The translations under genes and the position numbers were made by a program. Below, in pieces: positions 14,185 through 27,359 of a stretch of 34,789 nucleotides of DNA; positions within the stretch are counted from its first letter, which is position 1, and the number at the start of each line of letters is the position of its first letter. This stretch comes from Alphaproteobacteria bacterium HGW-Alphaproteobacteria-6 (GTDB lineage Bacteria; Pseudomonadota; Alphaproteobacteria; Rhodobacterales; Rhodobacteraceae): the NCBI GenBank assembly GCA_002841115.1, contig PHEC01000011.1, positions 1-34,789 on the forward strand, read 5' to 3'. The notes under the pieces were generated by a model, which worked only from the letters and a program-made list of their open reading frames with translations, made no database searches and had not been told where the DNA came from.

Positions 14185-15519
14185 ATGCAGGGCCAGGCCG
14201 GACTGGACCTCGGGCAATCGCGGTCGCTTGCCATGACCGACGATCTGCGAGGCGCGATCGGTCTGCTCAGATACCGCAATCATGAACTGGTCGAAGCGGC
14301 GCTGCTGGCGGCACGAACCAACCCGCATCTGTCGATATCGGAGACCGGGCAGGCGGCGGGCCTGTCCTGGCTGGACAGCTTCCGGCATGTCCCGTCGGAC
14401 GGCGCCGGCCGCTCAGGCGCGGGCGGCCCGGGCAAGCCAACCGGCGCGGCCAGCGGATCGGAGGACTGGCTGCCCGCCGCGTCGCCTGGCCTGGTGGCCC
14501 ATGTTCTGAGGCAGATCAACCTTGTCATTCGCGATTCCGCGCAGCGCCCCATCGCGCAGGCCTATCTCGAGGCGCTGGAACCAAGCGGCTGGCTGTCGCG
14601 CGGACCCGCCGACATCGCCCGGACCTGCGGCTGCAGCATCGACGAGGCCGAGCAGGTCCTTGCCCTGCTGCAGCAGGTCGATCCGGCCGGGCTTTTTGCA
14701 CGGTCGCTTGCCGAATGTCTGCGCCTTCAGGCACTGGACGCAGGTGTCCTGACACCCGAATTCGCGCGGCTGCTGGAGAACCTGGAGATGCTGGCGGCCA
14801 GGCAGTTCGACCTGCTGGCCGCGGAATGCGGCTGCGACGTCGACCGGTTGCAGGGAATGATCCGGACCCTGCGTGGCATGAATCCCAAGCCCGGCGCTGC
14901 CTTTTGCGAGGATATGTCGCCGATCACCGCGCCCGATCTGCTGGTCTGCCGCGACGGCGACCGGTGGATGGTCGAGCTGAACCGGTCGACCCTGAAGGCG
15001 ATCGAGGTGGTGCCGCTGCCGGGCACGGCGGCCGCAGCCGGCGATCTGCAGAAGGCGACGGCGCTGGTTCGGGCTGTCAGGCGCCGCAATGGCGCGGTGC
15101 TGCAGGTGGCCAGTGCCGTGATCGGCTGGCAACTGGGCTTTGTCGCGCAGGGGGTTCGCGCCTTGCGGCCGTTGAGCCTTGCCGATGTCGCAGAGATGAC
15201 GGGCCTGCACGTCAGCACCATTAGCCGCGTCACCGCGCACCTGCTGATCGCCCTGCCGGCAAGGACGGTCCGGTTCCGCGACCTCTTCAGCGCGGCCTGC
15301 GCCCCCGATGTCGCCAGAACCCGGGTTCTGGATGATATCCGCCGGCTGATCGGGGCCGAAGACCCCGCCGCGCCGATCACCGATGCCGCCATCGCCACCC
15401 GGCTGGCCCGGGCCGGCGTCGTCCTGGCCCGGCGCACAGTGGCAAAGTTCCGCGCCGAACTGGGCATACCCGGCGCGCCGCAGCGGCGCGGCAAGCCTGC
15501 CCCGGGTCCGCGCGCGTGA
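14185..15519 (+). CDS. rpoN: RNA polymerase sigma-54 factor, probably an accessory copy
   Basis: This 444-residue sigma-54 has region I at the N-terminus (LGQSRSLAMTDDLRGAIGLL), a core-binding domain (MNPKPGAAF segment), the helix-turn-helix region LSLADVAEMTGLHVSTISRV, and the RpoN box ARRTVAKFRA at residues 415-424. Sigma-54 recognises -24/-12 promoters and needs an AAA+ activator to open them. ATG 14185 follows AAGGGGG. An RpoN paralogue beside an activator gene and two -24/-12-like promoters suggests a dedicated regulon rather than the housekeeping nitrogen factor. Rhodobacteraceae are known to carry several non-interchangeable rpoN copies. The usual housekeeping rpoN neighbours (lptB, hpf, ptsN) are absent here. 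The RpoN box has Phe where Tyr is usual (AKFR). Confidence 0.92.
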   Translation: MQGQAGLDLGQSRSLAMTDDLRGAIGLLRYRNHELVEAALLAARTNPHLSISETGQAAGLSWLDSFRHVPSDGAGRSGAGGPGKPTGAASGSEDWLPAASPGLVAHVLRQINLVIRDSAQRPIAQAYLEALEPSGWLSRGPADIARTCGCSIDEAEQVLALLQQVDPAGLFARSLAECLRLQALDAGVLTPEFARLLENLEMLAARQFDLLAAECGCDVDRLQGMIRTLRGMNPKPGAAFCEDMSPITAPDLLVCRDGDRWMVELNRSTLKAIEVVPLPGTAAAAGDLQKATALVRAVRRRNGAVLQVASAVIGWQLGFVAQGVRALRPLSLADVAEMTGLHVSTISRVTAHLLIALPARTVRFRDLFSAACAPDVARTRVLDDIRRLIGAEDPAAPITDAAIATRLARAGVVLARRTVAKFRAELGIPGAPQRRGKPAPGPRA

Positions 15520-15550
15520 CTCCCTCGGCCAGGGTCGCGTGATTTTTCCG

Positions 15551-15574
15551 ATGCGTGCGCGGATTTCGCGCATG
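15551..15574 (+). promoter_or_regulatory. Putative activator-binding site upstream of the peptide ABC operon
   Basis: ATGCGTGCGCGGATTTCGCGCATG contains TGCGCG, a 5-nt spacer and CGCGCA as a perfect inverted repeat. It is centred about 95 bp upstream of the -24 element, where sigma-54 activators bind. A related element occupies the same relative place before the AtuA-like gene (23318-23339). Confidence 0.5.
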
Positions 15575-15654
15575 TCGAGCCTGCAGAGGCGGAACCACTC
15601 GGCTGGAATGTTGCAAGTAACTGGTCACCAAGGGCTTTCTTTCGACGCGGGCCA

Positions 15655-15670
15655 TGGCACGATTTGTGCA
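15655..15670 (+). promoter_or_regulatory. Sigma-54-type -24/-12 promoter of the peptide ABC operon
   Basis: TGGCACGATTTGTGCA has the invariant GG and GC dinucleotides spaced by exactly 10 nt, and TGGCAC matches the -24 consensus. At -12 it reads GTGC instead of the usual TTGC. The match continues as CATAT in the second copy at 23407-23422. The expected start of transcription is near 15681, leaving a leader of about 70 nt. The sequence is also nearly palindromic (GCAC..GTGC), so an operator is an alternative reading. Confidence 0.65.
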
Positions 15671-15751
15671 TATGGATAGGTGTCCAGAAGGCATCTTGCC
15701 GAACCGGACAGGACGTGCCGCCATGAGCGCATTGCGATAGGGAGTGATAAC

Positions 15752-17287
15752 ATGAAGACAGTGCAGAGCCTGACGATGGCAACTGCGATGGTACTCTGTC
15801 CGGTTCTGCCGGGGGTGCAGGCTGCCGATCTGATTGTCGGCTTTACCATCGATGCAGATACGCTCGATCCCGCCAACCACCGCAAGCGCGAGACCGAGAC
15901 GATCATCCGCAACATCCATGACGGCATCCTGACGCGCGACCCCGACATGCGGGTCGTGCCGGAAATCGCCGAGTCGATGACCCAGGTTTCGCCGACGGTC
16001 TATGACTTCAGGATCCGCCCGGGCATCAAGTTCCATGATGGCTCCGAAATGACCGCCGAAGACGTCAAGTTCACGCTCGACCGGGTGACGCTCGAAGGCG
16101 CGATGGGCGACGGGCAGACCAGCCCGCGTCAGGGGCTGATGGGCCCCATCGCCTCGGTCGAGATCGTCGGGGGCGACACGGTCCGCATAACGCTGAAGGA
16201 ACCCTGGCCGATCCTGCCCGCGATGCTGCCCAATCAGCAGGTCGTGTCGAAGGCATTCGTCGAGGCGAACGGTTCGGCCGGGATCGCGACGGCGACCAAT
16301 GGCACCGGCCCGTTCAAGCTGGCGGAATGGCGCAAGGGCGATGCGATCATTCTGGAGCGGTTCGACGACTACTATGGCGGCGCGCCCGATATCGCGCCGG
16401 TCGGCGCGGCCTGCGTCGACCGGGTGATCTTCAAGATCATTCCCGAAAGCGCCAGTCGCGTTGCCGCCCTGCTGGCCGGCGATGTCCATATCATCAACGA
16501 ACTGCCCACCTTCTCGATCGCCCAGGTCAAGGCGAACGAAGGCACCGACGTGATGACGGTCAACGGCACCCGCAGCTTCTTTCTTGCGATGAACATGCAA
16601 GGCGAGGTGTTCGACGATCTGAAGGTGCGCCAGGCGGCGGCCCATGCCATCGACAAGGACCTGATCATCGACCGCATCCTCGACGGCACCGCCGCCCGGA
16701 TCGAAGGGATCCTTTCGCCCGACGCCTTCGGGGCCAGCGAGTTGCCCGCCGTGTCCTATGACCCCGAAAAGGTCAAGGTGCTGCTGGCCGAGGCCGGGTT
16801 CCCCGACGGCATCGACATCACGATGGACACCGAAGGCGCCTTCAAGGACACCGCCGAGGCGATCGCATCCATGCTGACCAATGCGGGCATCCGCACCACC
16901 GTCGCGGTGGGCGAAAGCGCGCAGCTGACCGAGAAGTGGCGCACCGCCGGCAAGCCGAAATCGGGCGACATGTATTTCTCCAGCTGGGGCAATGGGTCGC
17001 TCGATCCCTTCGACATCTTCACGCCGACGCACCGGACCAATGACCGGGGCAATTCGGCCGGCTATTCCAATCCGGCGCTGGATGCGCTTCTCGATGCCGC
17101 GGCGGTCGAAATGGACGTGGACAAGCGCGCGGGGATGTACCGCGAGGCCGAACTGATGATCAACGCGGATCAGCCCTACGTCTATCTGTGGGTGCCCCAG
17201 GACATCTACGGCGTGTCGAAAAGGCTGTCGGGCTGGCAGCCCAGCGCCGACAGCCGGATCAACCTGCACGACGCCTGCATCAACTGA
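15752..17287 (+). CDS. Peptide-type ABC transporter substrate-binding protein
   Basis: This 511-residue SBP_bac_5 protein (DppA/OppA-like) has a signal peptide ending near GVQAAD. Its body carries typical features of the family: IDADTLDPA at the start, KFHDGSEMTAEDVKFTLDR and the hinge segments NGTGPFKL and VRQAAAHAIDKD. It captures the substrate in the periplasm. ATG 15752 follows GGGAGTG at 15740-15746. It is the first gene of an operon with two permeases, two ATPases and an acyltransferase-like enzyme. The ligand cannot be read from sequence; the family binds peptides but also nickel, glutathione, opines and other compounds. Confidence 0.92.
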   Translation: MKTVQSLTMATAMVLCPVLPGVQAADLIVGFTIDADTLDPANHRKRETETIIRNIHDGILTRDPDMRVVPEIAESMTQVSPTVYDFRIRPGIKFHDGSEMTAEDVKFTLDRVTLEGAMGDGQTSPRQGLMGPIASVEIVGGDTVRITLKEPWPILPAMLPNQQVVSKAFVEANGSAGIATATNGTGPFKLAEWRKGDAIILERFDDYYGGAPDIAPVGAACVDRVIFKIIPESASRVAALLAGDVHIINELPTFSIAQVKANEGTDVMTVNGTRSFFLAMNMQGEVFDDLKVRQAAAHAIDKDLIIDRILDGTAARIEGILSPDAFGASELPAVSYDPEKVKVLLAEAGFPDGIDITMDTEGAFKDTAEAIASMLTNAGIRTTVAVGESAQLTEKWRTAGKPKSGDMYFSSWGNGSLDPFDIFTPTHRTNDRGNSAGYSNPALDALLDAAAVEMDVDKRAGMYREAELMINADQPYVYLWVPQDIYGVSKRLSGWQPSADSRINLHDACIN

Positions 17288-17331
17288 CCCGCGTTCGCAG
17301 ACAGGGGGGGTAGGGGCATGAGGGGGCGGGC

Positions 17332-18339
17332 ATGAGTCTGGGCAAGTTTCTTGAGCGTCTGCTGCAACTTCTGCCCGTTCTTCTGGGGGTCAGCGCCATC
17401 GCGTTCCTGATGATGGCGCTGACGCCGGGCGATCCGGTGCAGATCATGATCGGCGACCAGTCGATCACCCCCGAACAGGAGGCAGAGCTGCGCCGCGGTC
17501 TTGGCCTCGACCGGCCGATGCTGGAGCGGTTCTTCATCTTTCTGGGCAATGCGCTGCAGTTCGATTTCGGCACCAGCTTCTATCACCGGCGCCCGGTCGG
17601 CGACGTGATCGCCGAACGCCTGCCGGCGACCATCGAGCTCAGCCTTGTTGCCCTGATTGTGGCGCTGGTCACGGCGATCCCGCTCGGGGTTCTGGCGGCG
17701 ATCCGCAAGAACTCCATCCTCGACCGCCTTGCCACGGTCGGCTCGCTTCTGGGAGTGTCGCTGCCGGGCTTCTGGTTCGGCATCCTGCTGATCATGCTCT
17801 TCGCGGTGCATCTGCAGATCCTGCCCGTCTCCGGGCGGATCGGATATTCCAGCGAGGTGTCGCCAATCACCGGCTTTCTGCTGATCGACACGCTGCTGCA
17901 CGGGGATCTGCGCGCCTTTGGCGATGCGCTGCGCCATATCCTGCTGCCCGCGATCACGCTTGGCCTGCCGATGACGGCGATCCTGATGCGTGTCACCCGC
18001 ACCTCGATGCTTGAGGTGCTGCGCCAGGACTATGTCACCTTCGCGGATGCCAAGGGCCTGTCGCGCCGCCGCGTGCTGTTTCGACACGCGCTGAAGAACG
18101 CGCTGATCCCGACCGTATCGGTGGCGGCCATCGAAACCGGCAGCCTGCTGGGCGGCAACATGATCGTCGAGACGGTCTTCGGCTGGCCCGGACTGGGGCG
18201 GCTGGTGGTCGAAAGCATCTTCTTGCGGAACTACCCGCTCGTGCAGGCGGCGGTGCTGTTCTACGCGGTCACCTACGTTCTGCTGAACTTCTTCGCGGAT
18301 ATCCTCTATACCGTCCTGAACCCGCGGGTGAAGCTGTGA
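17332..18339 (+). CDS. Peptide-type ABC transporter permease, DppB-like
   Basis: A 335-residue inner-membrane permease with about six helices. It has the N-terminal TPGDP motif (MMALTPGDPVQIMIG) and the EAA-type loop FADAKGLSRRRVLFRHALKNALIP, which contacts the ATPases. It pairs with the next gene to form the channel. The stop TGA overlaps the GTG start of the next gene (GTGA at 18336-18339), showing tight translational coupling. A 44-nt G-rich gap separates it from the binding protein. Confidence 0.92.
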   Translation: MSLGKFLERLLQLLPVLLGVSAIAFLMMALTPGDPVQIMIGDQSITPEQEAELRRGLGLDRPMLERFFIFLGNALQFDFGTSFYHRRPVGDVIAERLPATIELSLVALIVALVTAIPLGVLAAIRKNSILDRLATVGSLLGVSLPGFWFGILLIMLFAVHLQILPVSGRIGYSSEVSPITGFLLIDTLLHGDLRAFGDALRHILLPAITLGLPMTAILMRVTRTSMLEVLRQDYVTFADAKGLSRRRVLFRHALKNALIPTVSVAAIETGSLLGGNMIVETVFGWPGLGRLVVESIFLRNYPLVQAAVLFYAVTYVLLNFFADILYTVLNPRVKL

Positions 18340-19223
18340 CGATGCTGGCCGAAACCCCGGTGGCGGATTCGATCCTTCACAGGAACCTCGCGACCTTTGC
18401 CCGCAACCGCCTGGCGATGGGCAGTGCCGTCGTGGTGCTGCTGTTCGTGCTGATGGCGATCCTTGCACCCTGGGTTGCCCCGCAGGATCCCTATGCGACC
18501 GACCTGTTCCGGCGCCTTCAGCCGCCCGCCTGGATCGAGGGCGGTGACTGGGCCTTTCCGCTGGGCTGCGATGCGCTGGGGCGCGATATCCTGTCGCGCA
18601 TGATCTATGGCGCGCGCATTTCCATCTTCATCGGTGCATCGGTGATCCTTGTCGCCACGACCATCGGCATCCTGGCCGGGCTAGCGGCGGGCTATCTGCG
18701 CGGCTGGGTCGATGTGGTGATCTCGCGTCTTGTCGATATCCTGCTGGGCTTTCCCTACCTGATCTTTGCCATCGGCCTGATGGCGATGATGGGGCCGGGC
18801 CTGTGGAACATCATCCTGGCGCTGGCCTACAAGGAATGGGTGATCCCCTGTCGGGTCGTGCGGGGCGAAACCCTGGCCACGCGCGAACTGGAATATGTCG
18901 AGGCGGCCCGCGCGTTGGGTGCGTCGAGCCGGCACATCATGCTGAAAGAGATCCTGCCCAACATCCTGTCGCCGGTGATCGTGGTTTCGACGATCCGCAT
19001 GGCCCATGTCATCATCCTCGAGGCGTCGTTGTCCTTTCTCGGCCTTGGCGTCCAGCCGCCGACGGCCAGTTGGGGCAGCATGGTGTCGGACGGCCGCGCC
19101 TTCATCCTCGAGGCGTGGTGGGTCTCGACCTTCCCGGGCGTGGCGATCCTGCTGCTGGTGCTGGCGATCAACGTCGCAAGCCAGGGCCTGCGCGACGCCT
19201 TTGATCCGCGGTTCTCGGAATGA
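18336..19223 (+). CDS. Peptide-type ABC transporter permease, DppC-like
   Basis: A 295-residue permease with the DppC N-terminal domain (NLATFARNRLAMGSAVVVLLF, APQDPYATDL) and the coupling loop EAARALGASSRHIMLKEILPN. It forms the membrane channel with the preceding gene. Translation may start at GTG 18336, overlapping the upstream stop, or at ATG 18342 two codons later. The stop overlaps the next ATG (ATGA at 19220-19223). Confidence 0.92.
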   Translation: MTMLAETPVADSILHRNLATFARNRLAMGSAVVVLLFVLMAILAPWVAPQDPYATDLFRRLQPPAWIEGGDWAFPLGCDALGRDILSRMIYGARISIFIGASVILVATTIGILAGLAAGYLRGWVDVVISRLVDILLGFPYLIFAIGLMAMMGPGLWNIILALAYKEWVIPCRVVRGETLATRELEYVEAARALGASSRHIMLKEILPNILSPVIVVSTIRMAHVIILEASLSFLGLGVQPPTASWGSMVSDGRAFILEAWWVSTFPGVAILLLVLAINVASQGLRDAFDPRFSE

Positions 19224-20212
19224 GCGTGCTGCTGGACATCAAGGGGTTGCGCACGGTGTTCGACACCCGGGCCGGCGCGGTCTGGGCTGTCGACGGGGTC
19301 GACGTGCAGCTGATGCGCGGCGAATGCCTGGGCATCGTCGGCGAAAGCGGGTCGGGTAAATCGGTGACCTTCGCCAGCGTGATGGGCCTGGTCAAAAGCC
19401 CCGGCCGCGTGGCCGAAGGCCGGATCGTCTTTGACGGGCGCGACCTGCGGGCGCTGACGCCAGACCAGATGCGCGCGGTCCGTGGCAAGGAAATCGCCAT
19501 GACCATGCAGGACGCGCTGACCGCGCTGAACCCCGCGCTGACCGTGGGCGAGCAGATCGCCGAGGTGCTCGAGGCCCATGACGACACCCTGCCGCCACGG
19601 GGCCGCGCCCGCAGCAGGGCGATCCGCGACCGGTCGGTCGAGATGCTGGGTCTGGTCGGCATCCCCGCACCGGACAGCCGCCTGCGCCAGTATCCGCACG
19701 AATTTTCCGGCGGGATGCGGCAGCGGATCATGATCGCCATCGCCCTGGCCTGCGGCCCGAAACTGCTGATCGCGGACGAACCGACCACGGCCCTTGACGT
19801 GACGATCCAGGCGCAGGTTCTGGAACTGATCTCGGACATTCGCAAACGGATGGGGATGAGCGTGGCGCTGATCACCCATGATCTGGGTGTGGTGGCCGAA
19901 CACTGCGACCGGGTCATGGTGATGTATGCCGGACAGGTCGTCGAGCAGGGGCCGACCGCGCAGGTGATCGGCGAACCTCGGCACCCCTATACGCGCGGCT
20001 TGCTCGGGTCGATTCCGCGGCTGTCGATGCGGGGCCAGCCGATCACGCCGATTGAAGGGCAGGTTCCCGACCTGATCGGCCTGCCGCCGCAATGCCGGTT
20101 CCATTCGCGCTGTCCGGTGCGCAGCGACGCCTGCCTGGCCCCGATTGCCATGCGTGCTGCCGGCCCGGGCCGGTCGGCCCGCTGCATCCATGTTCACGAG
20201 GTTGCGCCATGA
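19220..20212 (+). CDS. Peptide-type ABC transporter ATPase, DppD-like
   Basis: A 330-residue ATPase with Walker A GESGSGKS (41-48), signature FSGGMRQR, Walker B LLIADEPTTALD and the H-loop ITHD. The C-terminal oligopeptide/dipeptide motif is present: PHPYTRGLL-type segment and the cysteines CRFHSRCPVRSDAC. It works as a heterodimer with the next ATPase. Start and stop overlap the neighbours (ATGA at both ends), so the operon is tightly coupled. Confidence 0.93.
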   Translation: MSVLLDIKGLRTVFDTRAGAVWAVDGVDVQLMRGECLGIVGESGSGKSVTFASVMGLVKSPGRVAEGRIVFDGRDLRALTPDQMRAVRGKEIAMTMQDALTALNPALTVGEQIAEVLEAHDDTLPPRGRARSRAIRDRSVEMLGLVGIPAPDSRLRQYPHEFSGGMRQRIMIAIALACGPKLLIADEPTTALDVTIQAQVLELISDIRKRMGMSVALITHDLGVVAEHCDRVMVMYAGQVVEQGPTAQVIGEPRHPYTRGLLGSIPRLSMRGQPITPIEGQVPDLIGLPPQCRFHSRCPVRSDACLAPIAMRAAGPGRSARCIHVHEVAP

Positions 20213-21216
20213 CGCTGCTGAAGGTCGAGCATCTGTCCAAGCACTACGAAGGGCGCCGGGGCATGATCGAGCGGCTGACCGGCACGGCCCATACCGTGGT
20301 GCGCGCGGTCAACGATGTCAGCCTGACGGTCGACCGGGGGGAAATCCTCGGGCTGATCGGCGAATCCGGTTGCGGCAAGTCCACCCTCGGTCGCGCCATC
20401 CTGCGCCTGCACGAGCCGACTTCGGGTCGGGTGAGCTTTGACGGCACCGATGTCACCGCCCTTGCGCCGGCGGCGCTCAAGGCGATGCGGCGGCGGATGC
20501 AGATCATCTTCCAGGACCCCTACGCCAGCCTGAACCCGCGGCGCACCGTTGCCCAGATCGTCGGCCTGCCGCTTGAACTGCATGGCCTGGCCGAGGGCGA
20601 AGAGGCCCGCGCCATCGTGGCGCGGATCATCGAACGGGTCGGGCTGAAGGCCAACCAGCTTGACCGCTATCCGCACCAGTTCTCGGGCGGCCAGCGCCAG
20701 CGGATCGGCATCGCCCGCGCGCTTGTCTCGAACCCCGAATTCGTCGTCTGCGACGAGCCGGTCTCGGCGCTGGACGTGTCGATCCAGGCCCAGATCATCG
20801 CCCTGCTGCAAGAGCTTAAGCAGGAATTCGGCCTGACCTACCTGTTCATCTCCCACGATATCTCGGTGATCGGCTATCTCAGCGACCGGGTCGCGGTGAT
20901 GTATCTGGGCGAGATCGTCGAGATGGGCCCGGTCAACGCCGTCCTGTCGCAGCCCCGCCACCCCTATACGCAAAGCCTGATGTCGGCGGTGCCCGAACTT
21001 GACCGCGAGGGTCCGCGCCGCCGGGTGCGGCTGACCGGCGACCTGCCCTCGCCGTTGAACCCGCCGGCGGGGTGCAAGTTCCACACCCGCTGCCCCCTGG
21101 CGGCAGAGACCTGCCGCAGGCTTGCGCCGGTGACCGAACAGGTCGGGCCGGGCCATTCCGCCGCCTGCCACCGGCTGGACGAACGACTGAACCTGCTGGC
21201 CGAGGCGGGCGCATGA
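20209..21216 (+). CDS. Peptide-type ABC transporter ATPase, DppF-like
   Basis: A 335-residue ATPase with Walker A GESGCGKS (51-58), [12 protein letters not shown], signature FSGGQRQR and Walker [13 protein letters not shown], plus the C-terminal cysteine segment [14 protein letters not shown]. It completes the importer. ATG 20209 overlaps the stop of the previous gene, and its own stop overlaps the start of the acyltransferase-like gene (ATGA at 21213-21216). That joins the hydrolase to the transporter at the level of translation. Confidence 0.93.
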
Positions 21217-22289
21217 TCCGGCTGCACGCAACCGGCGATGCCCGGGCGCGCGGCGCCGCGCAGGGGCGCAGCGGTCTGGCCGGCGATCTGGCCGCGCAGG
21301 TGCGGGCGGCGACCGTGGCCCGGGTGCAAACCGCGCGCGCCGACGGCTTGCTGGATGCCGAGGCCACCGCCTATCTGGCGGCGCAGCGCGCCTTTCACGC
21401 AAGACACGACCCCGACGGTCTGGCAGAGCTGGGCGGCATCGCCTCCGGCTTCAACCTGCCGGAAGCTGACCTTTTCGCCCATCTGCATCTGGGAACCCTG
21501 CGCGACCTGAAGGGCGGCGCAAGACTGGTCGACGGGTGCAGCGCCTGGGCGCTGACCGATGGGCCGGACGGTCCGCTGGTGGTGAAGAACCGCGACTATT
21601 CGGGACAGCATCTCGGCATTCAGGCGGTGGCCGACCACAAGGGTCCCGATATCGTGACCGGCGGGATGCTGTGTCTGGGCAGCCTGGGCAGCCCCGGGGC
21701 CTATTCGTCGGGGATCAACGCCGCGGGGCTGGCGGTTGCGGATACGCAGGTGGCGGTGGCCACCCACCGCGTCGGCTGGCTGCGCTATTTCCTGATGACC
21801 CGCCTTCTGGCGCAATGCGCGAGCGTGGCCGACGCGCTGGGTTTTCTGTCCGGGGTTCCCCATGCCGGGGGCGGCACGCTGATCCTGGCGGATGCGCAGG
21901 GGGCGGCGGCGGCCGTGGAACTGGGCGCGCGCGCCATCGCCCGGGTCAGTGCCGCGCGGGTCTGGCGCACCAACCATTTTGTCTCGGACGCACTGGCCGA
22001 TGACACCTTGCCGCCGGGCGACGACACCATCGCCGCCAATTCCCGCCAGCGCCTTGCCTATCTTGCGGCGACGCTGCCCGAAGGGAACTGGACCATCTCC
22101 GCCGCGCGTGCCCTGATGGCCACCCATCCCGCGCCGGGCGGCACTGGCGCCCCGATCTGCCAGCATGGAACGCTCGATGCGACGCAGACCATTTCCTCGG
22201 CCGTCTATTCGTGTACCCTGCGCAGCATCGAGATATGCGAGGGGAATCCCTGCACCGGCGCCTGGCAGCGTTTCGCGCTGTCGTCCTAG
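21213..22289 (+). CDS. C45-family (isopenicillin-N/acyl-CoA:6-APA acyltransferase-like) hydrolase
   Basis: The 358-residue protein belongs to the N-terminal-nucleophile superfamily, family C45. These enzymes cleave themselves before a cysteine that becomes the nucleophile, then hydrolyse amides or transfer acyl groups. The cleavage site is LVDGCSAW, with the Gly-Cys bond at residues 108-109, followed by VVKNRDYSG as in family members. Later blocks [13 protein letters not shown] and RTNHF are also conserved. It has no signal peptide, so it acts in the cytoplasm on imported material. Its start overlaps the stop of the last transporter gene, which ties the enzyme to the imported substrate. Possible substrates are N-acyl amino acids, acylated peptides or beta-lactam-like compounds; none is proven. 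Confidence 0.85.
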
Positions 22290-22303
22290 CCGGGGTCGGG
22301 GCG

Positions 22304-23305
22304 ATGGAACGGGGCATGGCCGATTACAAGGGCGAACTGATCGGCGAGCATGAAAGCATCCAAAGCCTGCGCCGCCTGATCCTGCGGGTGGCGCAAAGCC
22401 CGGCCCGCACCGTGCTGATCTATGGCGAAACCGGCACCGGCAAGGGGCTTGTCGCGCGGATGATCCATCAGGGATCTGCGCGCAAGTCAGGGGAATTCGT
22501 CGACATCAACTGCGCGGCGATCCCGGCCAGCCTGCTGGAATCGGAAATCTTCGGCCATGAAAAGGGCGCCTTCACCGGCGCTGTCGAACGCAAGCTGGGT
22601 CTGGTCGAGGCGGCCAACGACGGCTCGGTCTTTCTGGACGAGATCCGCGAGATGGACCCGCCGCTTCAGGCCAAACTTCTCAGCCTGCTGGACACGCAGC
22701 AGTTTCGCAGGGTCGGCGCCGTCAAGCCAACCACGGTCAATGTCCGCTTCATCGCCGCCACCAACAAGGTTCTTCTGGCCGAGGTCAAGGCCGGCAAGTT
22801 CCGAGAGGACCTGTATTACCGCCTGCAGGTGGTGGCGCTGAACGTTCCGGCGCTGCGCCAGAGGGGCGATGACGTGCTGGTGCTGGCCCGGCATTTCATC
22901 GACAAGTTCAACCGGATCTACACGCGCTCGATGGTCGGGCTGTCGGATGAAACGACGGAGATCTTCCTGCGCTACCCCTGGCCCGGCAATGTGCGAGAGC
23001 TGGAAAACCTGCTCGAGCGCATCTTCATCCTGGAAGATGACGATCTCATCCAGCCCCGGCACCTGCCCGACCGGATCCTGCGGACCGTGCGGTCGGGACT
23101 TGCGGCACCGGCTGAGGCGCCGGATGCGGCGCTTCCGCCCATGGACGGCGATTTCCGCGACGCGACCGAAGCGTTCCAGCGCATGCTGATCGAACGCGCG
23201 CTGGCCCGGGCGACGGGAAACCTGACCGATACGGCCCGCCATCTCGGCATCAGCCGTCATGCGCTGCGCCACCAGATGACCAAACTGCGCATCGCGCCGG
23301 CGTAA
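22304..23305 (+). CDS. Sigma-54 activator (bEBP) without sensory domain
   Basis: The 333-residue protein has an AAA+ domain that starts almost at the N-terminus: Walker A GETGTGKG (41-48), the sigma-54-contacting loop GAFTGA (88-93), Walker B SVFLDE (108-113) and the arginine-finger region FREDLYYRL (167-174). It ends with a Fis-type helix-turn-helix ([20 protein letters not shown], about 306-325). No receiver, PAS, GAF or ligand-binding domain precedes the AAA+ part, as in PspF and HrpR/S, so it must be regulated by another protein or by its own level. It starts 14 nt after the acyltransferase-like gene, apparently within the same operon (an alternative ATG is 22316). Natural targets are the promoters at 15655 and 23407. 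Confidence 0.92.
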
Positions 23306-23317
23306 ATCGCGCACCCG

Positions 23318-23339
23318 ATGCGCGCAGTTTGCACGCATG
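23318..23339 (+). promoter_or_regulatory. Putative activator-binding site upstream of the AtuA-like gene
   Basis: ATGCGCGC and GCACGCAT flank AGTTT, a 7-of-8 inverted repeat with a 5-nt spacer. It is centred about 80 bp before the -24 element, similar in sequence and place to the element at 15551-15574. Confidence 0.5.
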
Positions 23340-23406
23340 CCGGCGCGCCCGCCGTTCCGCTCAAAAATTCCCCTTTTTCTTCATGGCGTTGGATCGTGCG
23401 CGATCG

Positions 23407-23422
23407 TGGCACAATTTGTGCA
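23407..23422 (+). promoter_or_regulatory. Sigma-54-type -24/-12 promoter of the AtuA-like operon
   Basis: TGGCACAATTTGTGCA carries GG and GC 10 nt apart and differs from the element at 15655-15670 by a single base; the next bases CATATAG also match closely. The core GCACAA-T-TTGTGC is a perfect 13-bp palindrome. The predicted transcript start is near 23433, only about 15 nt before the first ATG of the downstream gene. Confidence 0.65.
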
Positions 23423-23447
23423 TATAGAGAGGAAAAGACACAGCTGA

Positions 23448-24818
23448 ATGGGAAAATTCATGACGTCGCTTCGGATCATCTGTCCCAACGGGCATCTGGG
23501 CTTTGCGCCCTTGAAGCCCGAAAGCTTCCAGATCGCCGTCGCCACCCGGCCCGATTTCATTGCGGCGGATTCCGGCAGCGACGACATCGGCCCGGTGCCG
23601 CTTGGCAATGACACCTGCGCCAGCCCCAGGGCCTGGCAGGAACATGATCTTGAGCTGATGCTGCTGGCCGCGCGCAAGCTGGGCGTGCCGATGCTGATCG
23701 GCTCGGCCGGCGATACCGGCACCAACAGCCGGGTCGACATGTATGTCGCGATGATCCGCGACATTGCGGCCCGTCACGGTCTGGCCCCCTTCCGGCTCGG
23801 CTGGTTCTATTCCGAAGTGGACAAGGAGATGGTCCGCGCGAAGATCCGCGGCGGTTCCCCGATCAAGGGGCTGGACGCCCGCGCCGATCTGACCGAGGCC
23901 GAACTTGACGCCACCAGCCGCATCGTGGCGATGGCCGGGGTGCATCCTTTCGTCAGGCTGCTGGAAGAGGGCTGCGACGTCATCATCGGCGGGCGGTCAT
24001 CCGACAGCGCGATCTTCGCGGCGGCCGCGCTTTTCAAGGGCTATCCGCAGGCGGAAAGCTATTACCTCGGCAAGGTGCTGGAATGCGCCTCGTTCTGCGC
24101 CGAACCTTACGGCGCAAAGGAAACCGTGATGGGCGAGATCACCGCCGATCATGTCGAGGTGACCGCGATGGCCCCGTTCCAGCGCTGCACCGTCGCCTCG
24201 GTCGCCGGGCATGCGATGTACGAGCGCTCAAACCCGTTTCATGAATTCGTGGCCGGCGGCATGCTTGACATGACCCGTTGCCATTACCGGCAGGTCGCCG
24301 ACAAGACCACCCGCGTCACCGGCATGGAATTTGTCCCCGCACAGGATTTCCGGGTCAAGCTGGAAGGATCGGGCAAGATCGGCGAGCGCTTCGTCGGGAT
24401 GGCGGGGATCCGCGACCCCTATACCATCGCCAATGTCGACGCGGTGATCGACTGGGCCCGCCAGCAGACCGTCGACCGGTTCGGCCCGGACGGCTGGGAA
24501 CTGCATTACAACGTCTTTGGCCGCAACGGCGTGATGGGCGACATGGAGCCGCTGAAGGACAAGCCGGGCCATGAATTGTGCATTGTCGTGCAGGGGGTGG
24601 CCCCGACCCGCGAGATGGCCGAAGAGGTCACGATGACCGGCACGCGGCAGCTGTTCTATGCCCGCCTGCCCGACGTCAAGGGCACGGCCGGCGGCGTGTC
24701 CTTCGTGCTGGACGAGGTGCTGCCGGCCAGCCCGGCCTATCGCTGGACGCTCAACCACACGATGGCGGTCAGTGATCCGCTGGCGCTGTTTCCCACCCAT
24801 ACGGCGATGGTCGGATAA
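23448..24818 (+). CDS. AtuA-like (DUF1446, acyclic terpene utilisation) protein
   Basis: The 456-residue protein matches the AtuA N-terminal domain family (DUF1446): N-terminal RIICPNGHLGF, DFIAADSGSDDIGP, LIGSAGDTGTNSRV and DVIIGGRSSDSAIFA. AtuA is named from the acyclic terpene degradation cluster of Pseudomonas, but most members are of unknown function and often lie in organic-acid or CoA-ester pathways. It has no signal peptide. Translation may start at 23448 or at ATG 23460; the early transcript start predicted from the sigma-54 element leaves little leader for the first. It is followed 11 nt later by a DUF4387 gene, the usual partner. Confidence 0.85.
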   Translation: MGKFMTSLRIICPNGHLGFAPLKPESFQIAVATRPDFIAADSGSDDIGPVPLGNDTCASPRAWQEHDLELMLLAARKLGVPMLIGSAGDTGTNSRVDMYVAMIRDIAARHGLAPFRLGWFYSEVDKEMVRAKIRGGSPIKGLDARADLTEAELDATSRIVAMAGVHPFVRLLEEGCDVIIGGRSSDSAIFAAAALFKGYPQAESYYLGKVLECASFCAEPYGAKETVMGEITADHVEVTAMAPFQRCTVASVAGHAMYERSNPFHEFVAGGMLDMTRCHYRQVADKTTRVTGMEFVPAQDFRVKLEGSGKIGERFVGMAGIRDPYTIANVDAVIDWARQQTVDRFGPDGWELHYNVFGRNGVMGDMEPLKDKPGHELCIVVQGVAPTREMAEEVTMTGTRQLFYARLPDVKGTAGGVSFVLDEVLPASPAYRWTLNHTMAVSDPLALFPTHTAMVG

Positions 24819-24829
24819 GGAAGATCAGG

Positions 24830-25159
24830 ATGAACACGCGCACCAGGCTTGCCGATCTGGCAAAGACGATACGCTCGAAGAACGCGGGCACCGACAAGAT
24901 CACCTTCGACATCATCTTCCGCGAAAAATCGACCTATGACATGGTCAAGCGATCGGGCAGCCTGTCGCCCGCTTCGGTTTGCGCGCTGCTGAACATCGAT
25001 CCGTCGCGGTTGACCGATTTCGTCGAATACGATCCGGCCTATGCGATCAAGTTCACGATCCTGCGCCTGCGCCCCTCGGGCAGTCCGGGCGATGCCGATA
25101 TCTTCGGCGCCCAGCAATATGCGCCATTCCTCGATGTCGAGATCGACCTGAGCAGTTGA
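24830..25159 (+). CDS. DUF4387-family protein, partner of the AtuA-like protein
   Basis: The 109-residue protein shows the family blocks RLADLAKTIRSKNAGTDKIT at the start, YDPAYAIKFTI in the middle and GAQQYAPFLDVEI at the end. DUF4387 proteins are encoded next to, or fused with, AtuA-like proteins, which suggests a two-part enzyme; the reaction is not known. The ATG is preceded by AAGGAAGATCAGG. The stop codon lies in a perfect 13-bp tandem repeat (25146-25171), so the tail of the gene has been duplicated just past its end. Confidence 0.85.
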   Translation: MNTRTRLADLAKTIRSKNAGTDKITFDIIFREKSTYDMVKRSGSLSPASVCALLNIDPSRLTDFVEYDPAYAIKFTILRLRPSGSPGDADIFGAQQYAPFLDVEIDLSS

Positions 25160-25259: not shown

Positions 25260-27359
25260 CTACTGCGGAGAGTTCTGCCATGCGAAGCCTGCGCATGGAT
25301 GGTCGAACAGGTCCAGCAACTCGTCGTCAAGCTGCATCAGCGTCACCGAGGCGCCGACCATGTCAAGCGACGTGCAATAGTGCCCGACCATGCAGCGCGT
25401 GACGGTGATGTCGCGCGCGGCAAGGCGCTGCTGGATCCGGCGGCTCAGGATAAAGAGTTCCATCATCGGTGTTCCACCAAGCGAATTGACCAGCAGGGCA
25501 ACACGGGCGCCGGGCAGGGACTGCATCTCGCTCATCAGGCGGTCGAAAATCCGATCGGCGGCGGCGTCGGCCGTTTCCAGGGGCTGGCGCGTCACGCCGG
25601 GTTCACCGTGGATGCCGATACCCACCTCCATGTCATGCTCGCCGAGGCGAAAGCTGGGGCGCTGCGTATCGGGAAGGGAACAGGGCTCAAGCCCCAGCCC
25701 CATCGTGAAGGTTGCAGCATTGGCCTTGCGCGCAAGCCGTTCACAGTCACCAAGCGGATACATGCGGTCACAGGCGGCCCCGGCGATCTTGAACACGAAT
25801 ACGTTGCCTGCGGTGCCGCGCCGCCCCGCGCGATCTTCGGCAGCCGACGAGGCGACATCATCGGTTGTCAATATGGTGCGGACGTCAATGCCTTCGCCGG
25901 CGGCCAGTTCGGCAGCCATGTCGAAGTTCATGACATCCCCGGTGTAGTTCCCGTAAATGTAGAGAACGCCTGCGCCCGTCGAGGCAAATCGGGTGCAGGT
26001 CAGGACGCGATCCGGTGGCGGCGAGGCAAAGACGTTGCCGACGGCCACCGCATCGGCCAGCCCTGGCCCGACATATCCCAGAAAACAGGGCTCGTGCCCG
26101 GCACCGCCGCCGATCACCAGCCCGACCTTGCCCGCGCGGGGCGCCGTGCTGGACCGGATGGCCTGCAGCGATTTCCCGATCGGTGCAATGAACTGCGGAA
26201 AGGCACGCAAGGCGCCGTCCAGCGACTGGGACACGGCATCGCGCGGCGCGTTGATGAACTTCTTGACCCGGCTTCGCGTGGCAAAGTCTGCCGACCGGTC
26301 AACCTGGCCGGGCCGAGCGGATCGTGGCGCTTCGGTCTCGGCACCGTCGGCGCGCAGGATACCCTCGCCGGTCGCCGCGTCGGTCACAAGCACGGTAACG
26401 AAGCCGCCCCGCAAGGCGGCGAGGATCGCCGGCACCTTGTCATATCCGCCCGCCACCAGCACGCGGGTGGGCACCCTGGCAAGCTGATCCAGCTCGATTC
26501 CCAGCGTGCGGTTTGTCAACGGGCCGTCGACCTGCGCGCCGTTTGCATCGATGAAGCGGCCCGCGATCGAACCGACAGCATTATGGTAGTGGTCATGTTG
26601 CTGCAGGGCGCTGTCGAAGAAGCCGCTGATGTGAATGGTGGAATTTGCCCGCAGCGACGACACGCCAAAGATGATCCGGTCCAGCTGGTCGAAGGTTGCA
26701 ATCTGCTCTGCGACGACAGGCTCGCTCAGCAGGATCATCTTTGCTTCGGCCGAGGACAGGATGGCGGGTGCCGAGATCGGAATGGAGCGGGCGCCAAGCG
26801 CCTCTGCCAATCGGCGCGCACAGGCTTCGGGGGTATATTCAATGACCGCCGTGGTGCCGCCGGTGGCCTGAACGACCCGGATATCCTTCAGGTCACGATT
26901 TTCGGTTGCCCTTGCGACCGCGAGCATGGTCCGGCCCCAGGTAATGCCGATCGTGTCGCCGGAGTGCACAAGCGAGCCAAGCGCCTGCGCGCCGGCGGCC
27001 CCCAGCCGATCGATCAGCGACCTGTCACCGCCCTCGCCGGGGATCACAAGACACTCGTCCAGCCCGAAATGCTCCTGAAGGCGCCCGGCAATGGACAATG
27101 ACTTCAGCCGCTCGCTGGAAATGGTGATATTGACGATGCCCTTCGATCTGGCATCGGCCAGATAGGCATTGACCGTCGGCCGCGACACGTTCATCGCTTC
27201 GGCGACTTCCCCCTGGGTCAGGCCTTCCTCGTAGTAGAGCCAGCTCGCCCAGACCAGTGGATCCTCGCCAAAGCGCAGCGCCGAACGGACAAGCCCCGGC
27301 GATTTCGTGCGCGCGCGGTCTGCGTTGCGCGCCGCTCCATCGGTCGGCGCAGCACTCAT
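25260..27359 (-). CDS. SorC-family regulator fused to a dihydroxyacetone kinase DhaK domain
   Basis: This 699-residue protein joins two complete modules. Residues about 30-345 are a SorC/DeoR-type sugar-responsive repressor: helix-turn-helix GLTQGEVAEAMNVSRPTVNA (47-66) and an effector domain with SGDTIGITWGRTM. Residues about 360-697 are a full DhaK: GGGAGHEP (417-424) with His422, NYTGDVMNFD with Asp475, and IGIHGEPG with the substrate-linking His584. All expected catalytic residues are present. A DhaL gene lies directly upstream with an ATGA overlap (27357-27359), providing the ATP-binding partner. The protein may sense the kinase substrate and adjust the operon accordingly. It is the last gene of the operon. 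Similar fusions have been named in database annotation, but I know of no detailed study. Confidence 0.92.
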   Translation of the reverse strand: MSAAPTDGAARNADRARTKSPGLVRSALRFGEDPLVWASWLYYEEGLTQGEVAEAMNVSRPTVNAYLADARSKGIVNITISSERLKSLSIAGRLQEHFGLDECLVIPGEGGDRSLIDRLGAAGAQALGSLVHSGDTIGITWGRTMLAVARATENRDLKDIRVVQATGGTTAVIEYTPEACARRLAEALGARSIPISAPAILSSAEAKMILLSEPVVAEQIATFDQLDRIIFGVSSLRANSTIHISGFFDSALQQHDHYHNAVGSIAGRFIDANGAQVDGPLTNRTLGIELDQLARVPTRVLVAGGYDKVPAILAALRGGFVTVLVTDAATGEGILRADGAETEAPRSARPGQVDRSADFATRSRVKKFINAPRDAVSQSLDGALRAFPQFIAPIGKSLQAIRSSTAPRAGKVGLVIGGGAGHEPCFLGYVGPGLADAVAVGNVFASPPPDRVLTCTRFASTGAGVLYIYGNYTGDVMNFDMAAELAAGEGIDVRTILTTDDVASSAAEDRAGRRGTAGNVFVFKIAGAACDRMYPLGDCERLARKANAATFTMGLGLEPCSLPDTQRPSFRLGEHDMEVGIGIHGEPGVTRQPLETADAAADRIFDRLMSEMQSLPGARVALLVNSLGGTPMMELFILSRRIQQRLAARDITVTRCMVGHYCTSLDMVGASVTLMQLDDELLDLFDHPCAGFAWQNSPQ

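Follow-up and report, generated by a model that had tools for sequence, protein, structure and literature searches.

Can a sigma factor be the property of a single nutrient pathway? Sigma-54 (RpoN) is commonly regarded as a global factor with a large number of dispersed promoters. The question is raised by a locus on contig PHEC01000011.1 of Alphaproteobacteria bacterium HGW-Alphaproteobacteria-6 (Rhodobacteraceae), one contig of a 3.77 Mb draft genome (288 contigs, 87% complete); the whole stretch analysed, 34,789 nucleotides long, is called the window below. Positions 14185-25159 carry ten genes, all on the + strand: rpoN, a solute-binding protein (SBP) gene, two permease and two ATPase genes, a C45-family enzyme gene, a sigma-54 activator gene, atuA and a DUF4387 gene. 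A first-pass annotation had proposed that this RpoN serves only this catabolic set, and had called such packaging unusual and seemingly undescribed. In our analysis, the cassette is very probably a self-contained sigma-54 module serving this operon pair. G-numbers denote genomes and L-numbers loci.

Gene Content and Conservation of the Cassette

The components named by the first-pass annotation are all there. The window RpoN scores 133.1 bits for the core-binding domain (cut-off 22.9) and 127.9 bits for the DNA-binding domain (cut-off 22.8) in Pfam, and it carries the RpoN box ARRTVAKFR; the activator has GAFTGA at residue 88; the two near-identical -24/-12 elements were found at 15655 and 23407; the peptide-type importer, the C45-like enzyme and the AtuA-like protein are recognised by Pfam or NCBIfam, and the DUF4387 partner of AtuA by its homology to chain B of PDB 9erq.

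Among 394 genomes of the family, 16 have the activator (E at most 1e-120), the window's own included, and rpoN lies directly 5' of the SBP gene in all 16; the cassette stands on one contig in 15 of them and is spread over two in G189, where one contig bears rpoN, the SBP gene and the start of a permease gene. Seven further genomes of the window's own genus, to which the relative Defluviimonas sediminis, a carrier of the cassette and of another rpoN besides, belongs, have the cassette (G004, G006, G012, G014, G018, G019 and G021; the contigs of G004 and G006 end before the activator). Overall, rpoN adjoins the SBP gene in 23 of 23 cassette genomes, and the order from rpoN to atuA is unbroken in 20 of them (atuA of G014 lies at the edge of the sequence examined); four more named loci agree (Rhodobacteraceae UBA6213, Maritimibacter sp. 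HL-12, HLUCCA09 and Pseudotabrizicola). Every relative examined thus has the same gene set beside RpoN, within contig reach. A contig scan with the activator alignment was followed for the best 80 loci of more, 29 of which were examined for the operon; the same scan with the window RpoN alone as query recovered no relative. The activator search gave 3 matches, the window's own included, over 385 genomes of the class, and, among plasmids, no Rhodobacteraceae record, the matches being Ciceribacter and Cupriavidus (4 records); two Cupriavidus plasmid loci hold activator, AtuA and DUF4387 only.

Genomes Whose Only Sigma-54 Is the Cassette's

In 9 of the 23 cassette genomes, a PF04552 search finds a single sigma-54 gene, and it is the cassette's (G032, G134, G189, G375, G212, G339, G174, G228 and G413; 94-100% complete). 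These nine genomes gave 50 non-cassette PF00158 matches, 30 stronger and 20 split or partial; weak matches, such as a Clp-type ATPase of which the window also has one, were left out, and the presence of G[AS]FTGA was judged by alignment. The motif is missing from 28 of the 30 stronger matches, where it is deleted or reads GAFPGA or GAMPGA, or, in one case, G-FTGQ; among the 20 split or partial ones, 16 align without it, 2 are fragments that stop short and 2 are not activators by tblastn, and no frame of these 20 sequences contains it. Altogether, 44 of the 46 judgeable other activator-type proteins are without G[AS]FTGA, and in seven of the nine genomes no intact GAFTGA activator other than the cassette's was found. 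The proteins with GAFPGA or GAMPGA, seen for example at L131, L134, L135 and L141, give the impression of having lost their contact with sigma-54.

One could also imagine the cassette RpoN as a relocated general sigma-54, which other activators would take to genes beyond the cassette as well. G134 and G375, whose sole sigma-54 is the cassette's, do keep one more activator each (G134:C2 with GAFTGA and G375:C35 with GSFTGA), as this explanation would have it; the other seven genomes have no further intact GAFTGA among the matches checked, the promoter pattern is no more frequent outside the cassette than in the control (see below), and the lptB-linked RpoN of the window's own genome falls in a different clade. 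We hold a relocated general factor to be rather unlikely.

Promoters

A -24/-12 site lies 79-104 nt before the SBP gene in 22 of 22 cassettes with sequence there, and another 47-57 nt before atuA in 21 of 21. The 17-base form TGGCACRNNTTGTGCAT occurs exactly at two places only in the window's own genome, both of them cassette promoters; allowing up to 2 mismatches, the total is at chance, with 4 sites versus 5 in the reversed control, and the two non-cassette sites have 2 mismatches each, one lacking the GG. Allowing 1 mismatch, the loose pattern TGGCACNNNNNNTGC likewise stays at chance in the window (12 found versus 13.4 expected), and a looser pattern gives 18 sites in the own genome versus 12 in the control. 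Over ten whole genomes, the strict pattern TGGCAYRNNNNNTGCAT finds 22 sites, 18 in cassettes and 4 elsewhere, versus 5 in the reversed control. The genome scan that the first-pass annotation had called for, thus, returns no excess of the motif outside the cassette, neither in the own genome nor in the ten.

The bases at -11/-10, which played no part in site picking, read AT in all 52 cassette promoters versus 4 of 32 promoters of operons without a linked rpoN; this contrast between two sets of promoters, a statistical sign only, suggests co-adaptation of the promoters with the linked rpoN.

The Activator and Its Probable Sites

The activator has no sensor domain recognised by Pfam, and its AAA+ domain begins at about residue 12 of 333 (start at 22304). 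Over 43 upstream regions, the commonest dyads are GCGCG-N5-CGCGC (12) and GCGTG-N5-CACGC (8), with a maximum of 3 in 20 shuffles. The palindrome TGCGYG-N5-CRCGCA, with up to 2 mismatches, is found in 41 of the 43 regions versus 33 of 430 shuffles and 5 of 32 pieces of operon of 200 nt. Its distances to the -24 element are phased (resultant 0.79 at 11 bp and 0.65 at 10.5 bp), a phasing reached by 0 of 5000 random sets in a test where relatives are not independent; the 17 distinct distances give 0.61-0.73. Phasing at about 11 bp places the sites on one helix face, and we take these palindromes to be probable activator sites (upstream activating sequences, UAS). In the window, the centre of TGCGCGGATTTCGCGCA lies 91 bp upstream of the -24 element of promoter 1, and the spacer in TGCGCGCAGTTTGCACGCA, upstream of atuA, is 7 instead of 5. 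As to how a sensorless activator might be controlled, a cassette protein acting as its partner and a supply of activator set by feedback are two possibilities.

A Divergent RpoN under Purifying Selection

The fastest-changing gene of the cassette is rpoN, its copies being 36-52% identical to the window's versus 52-96% for the other genes (ATPase-ATPase cross-hits at contig ends left out). With 259.5 bits for TIGR02395 (cut-off 277.35), and below the cut-offs of six other NCBIfam sigma-54 models as well, the window protein is a divergent member by full-length score. Region I (PF00309) is not reported for it, and an N-terminus of the LAMTxxLRxAIxLL type is visible in the window and in most cassette copies.

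Is rpoN, then, a decaying copy carried along by linkage? Its faster change relative to its neighbours would fit, as would the copy of G012, which is shorter; the ratio of nonsynonymous to synonymous substitution rates (dN/dS), however, is 0.19-0.34 in six close pairs, i.e., purifying (0.04-0.25 for four neighbour genes), the RpoN box is kept in the copies viewed, the helix-turn-helix (HTH) is recognisable, and the reading frames are open in all 22 translated copies. The RpoN box pattern itself is matched by 17 of 22 copies, Q or R replacing the first A in the other five. Decay is, therefore, scarcely credible to us. The other cassette genes of G012 are present within the sequence examined.

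The cassette RpoNs, the G189 copy included, form one clade, whose nearest neighbours are RpoNs including one from a flagellar cluster (G059); the lptB-linked RpoN of the own genome lies outside it. The sigma-54 genes of the six genomes that score best among those lacking the cassette activator (G328, G319, G283, G157, G221 and G111) were considered as possible cassette remnants and rejected, all six lying among flagellar genes. A sigma-54 promoter driving rpoN itself was likewise rejected: the best upstream sites score like shuffles, which would put the activator rather than rpoN under feedback.

The Same Operon without a Linked rpoN

Outside the family, 12 loci have the same operon in the same gene order without a linked rpoN: a Ciceribacter thiooxidans plasmid, G642, G600, Stappia stellulata, Rhizobiales AFS003181, a gammaproteobacterial metagenome-assembled genome (MAG), Microvirga, Polaromonas, Rhodoferax, Humitalea, Elioraea and Neoroseomonas; between 0.9 and 7 kb upstream of the SBP gene were covered, and the Rhodoferax locus ends inside atuA. 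Both -24/-12 sites are recognisable in 10 of the 12, but -11/-10 is not fixed to AT as it is in the cassettes. Judging from this comparison, rpoN was probably a later addition to the operon. The simplest reading is one gain of an rpoN paralogue by an operon once served by a general RpoN, and we infer a gain in the family rather than a loss elsewhere: an ancestral operon under general RpoN would have had, in the Rhodobacteraceae, an rpoN paralogue fixed at its head and co-adapted with its promoters. In an alphaproteobacterial MAG (L202, 3414-11333), the operon lies 3.5 kb from a housekeeping-like rpoN on the opposite strand; this downstream gene, in an apparent lpt-rpoN-hpf-ptsN setting (gene names read from the sequence, not from Pfam), was rejected as a dedicated copy.

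These loci bear on another explanation, namely an ordinary sigma-54 operon that either RpoN could use, the linked rpoN being a neighbour with no exclusive role. The window's own genome has two sigma-54 genes, the second one of housekeeping type in the order lptA-lptB-rpoN-hpf; together with the same operon standing without a linked rpoN in other families, this is what one would expect if either factor served. It would leave unexplained why rpoN adjoins the operon in every cassette genome with no other sigma-54 in nine of them, why -11/-10 is AT wherever rpoN is linked, and why rpoN is under purifying selection; we find it quite improbable, and prefer the self-contained module.

One has to keep in mind that several points weigh against the module or limit the figures in its favour. 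Of the 23 cassette genomes, 14, the window's own among them, show a second sigma-54 match (in G006 a 62-aa fragment only), so cross-talk is possible, and in the own genome, with its housekeeping-type RpoN, exclusive service is a presumption. The first-pass claim is nevertheless supported: against its refuting conditions, the organism does have another rpoN, and the motif is not above control elsewhere; the case is stronger than was proposed in the nine genomes where the cassette gene is the sole sigma-54 found. The cassette RpoN may serve another gene too in G134 and G375, and two contig-end activator fragments (G032:C11 and G174:C71) are not judgeable. The atuA promoters of G032 (CGGCAC) and G339 (GCGCAT) deviate from the strict pattern, which, thus, misses real sites and may miss others elsewhere, and four outgroup upstream regions have no recognisable site (L166, L199, L200 and L211). 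GCGCG dyads recur at other spacings in 4-6 regions each versus 12 at spacing 5, so part of the UAS signal is base composition, and shuffling these regions loses their richness in GCGC. Because the loci are relatives, some of them almost the same in sequence, the shuffle and Fisher figures make them look more independent than they are, and the Fisher value is only descriptive; the support of the cassette RpoN clade is moderate (SH-aLRT 86, in a quick tree); and the G012 rpoN (L045, 9526-10626) encodes 366 aa, apparently without an internal stretch.

Proposed Mechanism and Pathway

We propose that the cassette RpoN, made from a promoter without a sigma-54-dependent look, would direct RNA polymerase to the two cassette promoters only (Table 1). 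The activator would bind the phased palindromes upstream of both and open them with its GAFTGA-bearing AAA+ motor; promoter 1 would then yield importer and C45 hydrolase and, in positive feedback, more of the activator, and promoter 2 AtuA and DUF4387.

Solved relatives of the SBP include dipeptide- and agrocinopine-binding proteins. The GCS motif, whose Cys we take to be the nucleophile, is present in 21 of 21 C45 orthologues; a sequence search found no PDB relative of C45. AtuA and DUF4387 adjoin and are homologues of the PDB 9erq chains labelled citramalate lyase subunits A and B; the likeness to CmlA/CmlB (PDB 9erq, 9evf) holds for both chains and is one of sequence. Our literature search found nothing on DUF4387 or on citramalate lyase with CmlA, nor the paper of PDB 9erq/9evf. 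Going by these homologies, the importer may take up a peptide-like amide, which C45 would hydrolyse, and AtuA-DUF4387 would act on a product as a citramalate-lyase-like enzyme.

Table 1. Features of the sigma-54 cassette, in window coordinates.
Feature	Position	Strand	Evidence
rpoN (cassette sigma-54), 444 aa	14185..15519	+	Pfam PF04963 and PF04552; RpoN box; orthologues 36-52% identical
Probable activator site (UAS) TGCGCGGATTTCGCGCA	15556..15572	+	TGCGYG-N5-CRCGCA, 0 mismatches; phasing
Promoter 1 (-24/-12), importer operon, TGGCACGATTTGTGCAT	15655..15671	+	Pattern search, conserved position
SBP family 5, peptide/dipeptide type	15752..17287	+	PF00496, 277 bits
Importer permease B	17332..18339	+	PF00528
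Importer permease C	18336..19223	+	PF00528, PF12911
Importer ATPase, OppD/DppD-type	19220..20212	+	PF00005, PF08352
Importer ATPase, OppF/DppF-type	20209..21216	+	PF00005, PF08352
C45-family acyltransferase/hydrolase	21213..22289	+	NF040521, 131.2 bits (cut-off 85); GCS motif
Sigma-54 activator (bacterial enhancer-binding protein), AAA+ with GAFTGA and Fis-type HTH	22304..23305	+	PF00158, PF25601, PF02954, alignment
Probable activator site upstream of atuA, TGCGCGCAGTTTGCACGCA	23319..23337	+	Sequence reading; 2-mismatch match to the 5-spaced motif
Promoter 2 (-24/-12), atuA operon, TGGCACAATTTGTGCAT	23407..23423	+	Pattern search, conserved position
AtuA-family protein, CmlA (citramalate lyase subunit A) homologue	23460..24818	+	PF07287; PDB 9erq_A, E 2.2e-70
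DUF4387 protein, CmlB (citramalate lyase subunit B) homologue	24830..25159	+	PDB 9erq_B, E 2.2e-22

Known RpoN Modules and a Second Cassette

Of the four RpoNs of Cereibacter (Rhodobacter) sphaeroides, three are each known to have an activator and a gene set of their own, i.e., RpoN1-NifA (nif), RpoN2-FleQ (fla1) and RpoN3-AprX (xrpA), and no role is given there for RpoN4 (PMC11999139; PMC7277832); rpoN2 lies inside its flagellar locus (PMC11999139; PMC7277832; PMC3162934), and RpoN1 and RpoN2 promoters are reported to differ at -11 (PMC11999139; PMC3162934). The cassette resembles those modules in having a sigma-54 paralogue linked to, or co-occurring with, one activator and a restricted gene set; it differs in that its target is a nutrient import and catabolic operon, in that sigma factor, activator, sites and targets are contiguous, and in that its sigma-54 is the sole one found in 9 of 23 genomes. 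The claim of undescribed packaging holds in part: our literature search, of partial coverage, found no description of an operon-borne sigma-54 for such a gene set, while dedicated RpoN-activator pairs are known in C. sphaeroides (PMC11999139). Dedicated RpoN modules are, thus, not new; what is new here is a contiguous, more self-contained nutrient cassette that is sometimes the whole sigma-54 system.

A second packaged sigma-54 stands in the same order in four genomes, G011, G342, G314 and G106 (L044, 249-10325; L276, L277 and L278): glutamine-synthetase-like gene (at the edge of the sequence examined in L277 and L278), PAS protein, PAS-activator with GAFTGA, SBP, Pot-type ATPase, two permeases, GATase and rpoN. 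Its gene content would fit gamma-glutamylation of a polyamine or amine. No clear -24/-12 pair was found in it, the best site before the PAS gene falling inside the end of the upstream reading frame (L044).

We lean towards the view that, in part of the Rhodobacteraceae, the whole sigma-54 system has been reduced to a unit carried in one operon, with a single sigma factor, a single activator, two promoters and one nutrient pathway, and that sigma-54 modules there are single-function cassettes, of which the four genomes above would hold a second nutrient example. The evolution of promoter specificity and of sigma-activator pairing could be followed in such a minimal natural system, a lone sigma-54 carried in an operon with one apparent activator, and matched outgroups are at hand in the same operon without a linked rpoN. 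For one type of rpoN paralogue, moreover, the cassette points to a role, and it would connect AtuA/DUF4387 with the uptake of a peptide-like compound and with a lyase step.

Beyond the cassette, the - strand of the window at 25263-27359 encodes a 699-aa fusion of a SorC-like regulator (HTH and sugar-binding domain) with a dihydroxyacetone-kinase DhaK domain; the gene adjoins two DhaL genes, another DhaK, an SDR and a sugar-type importer.

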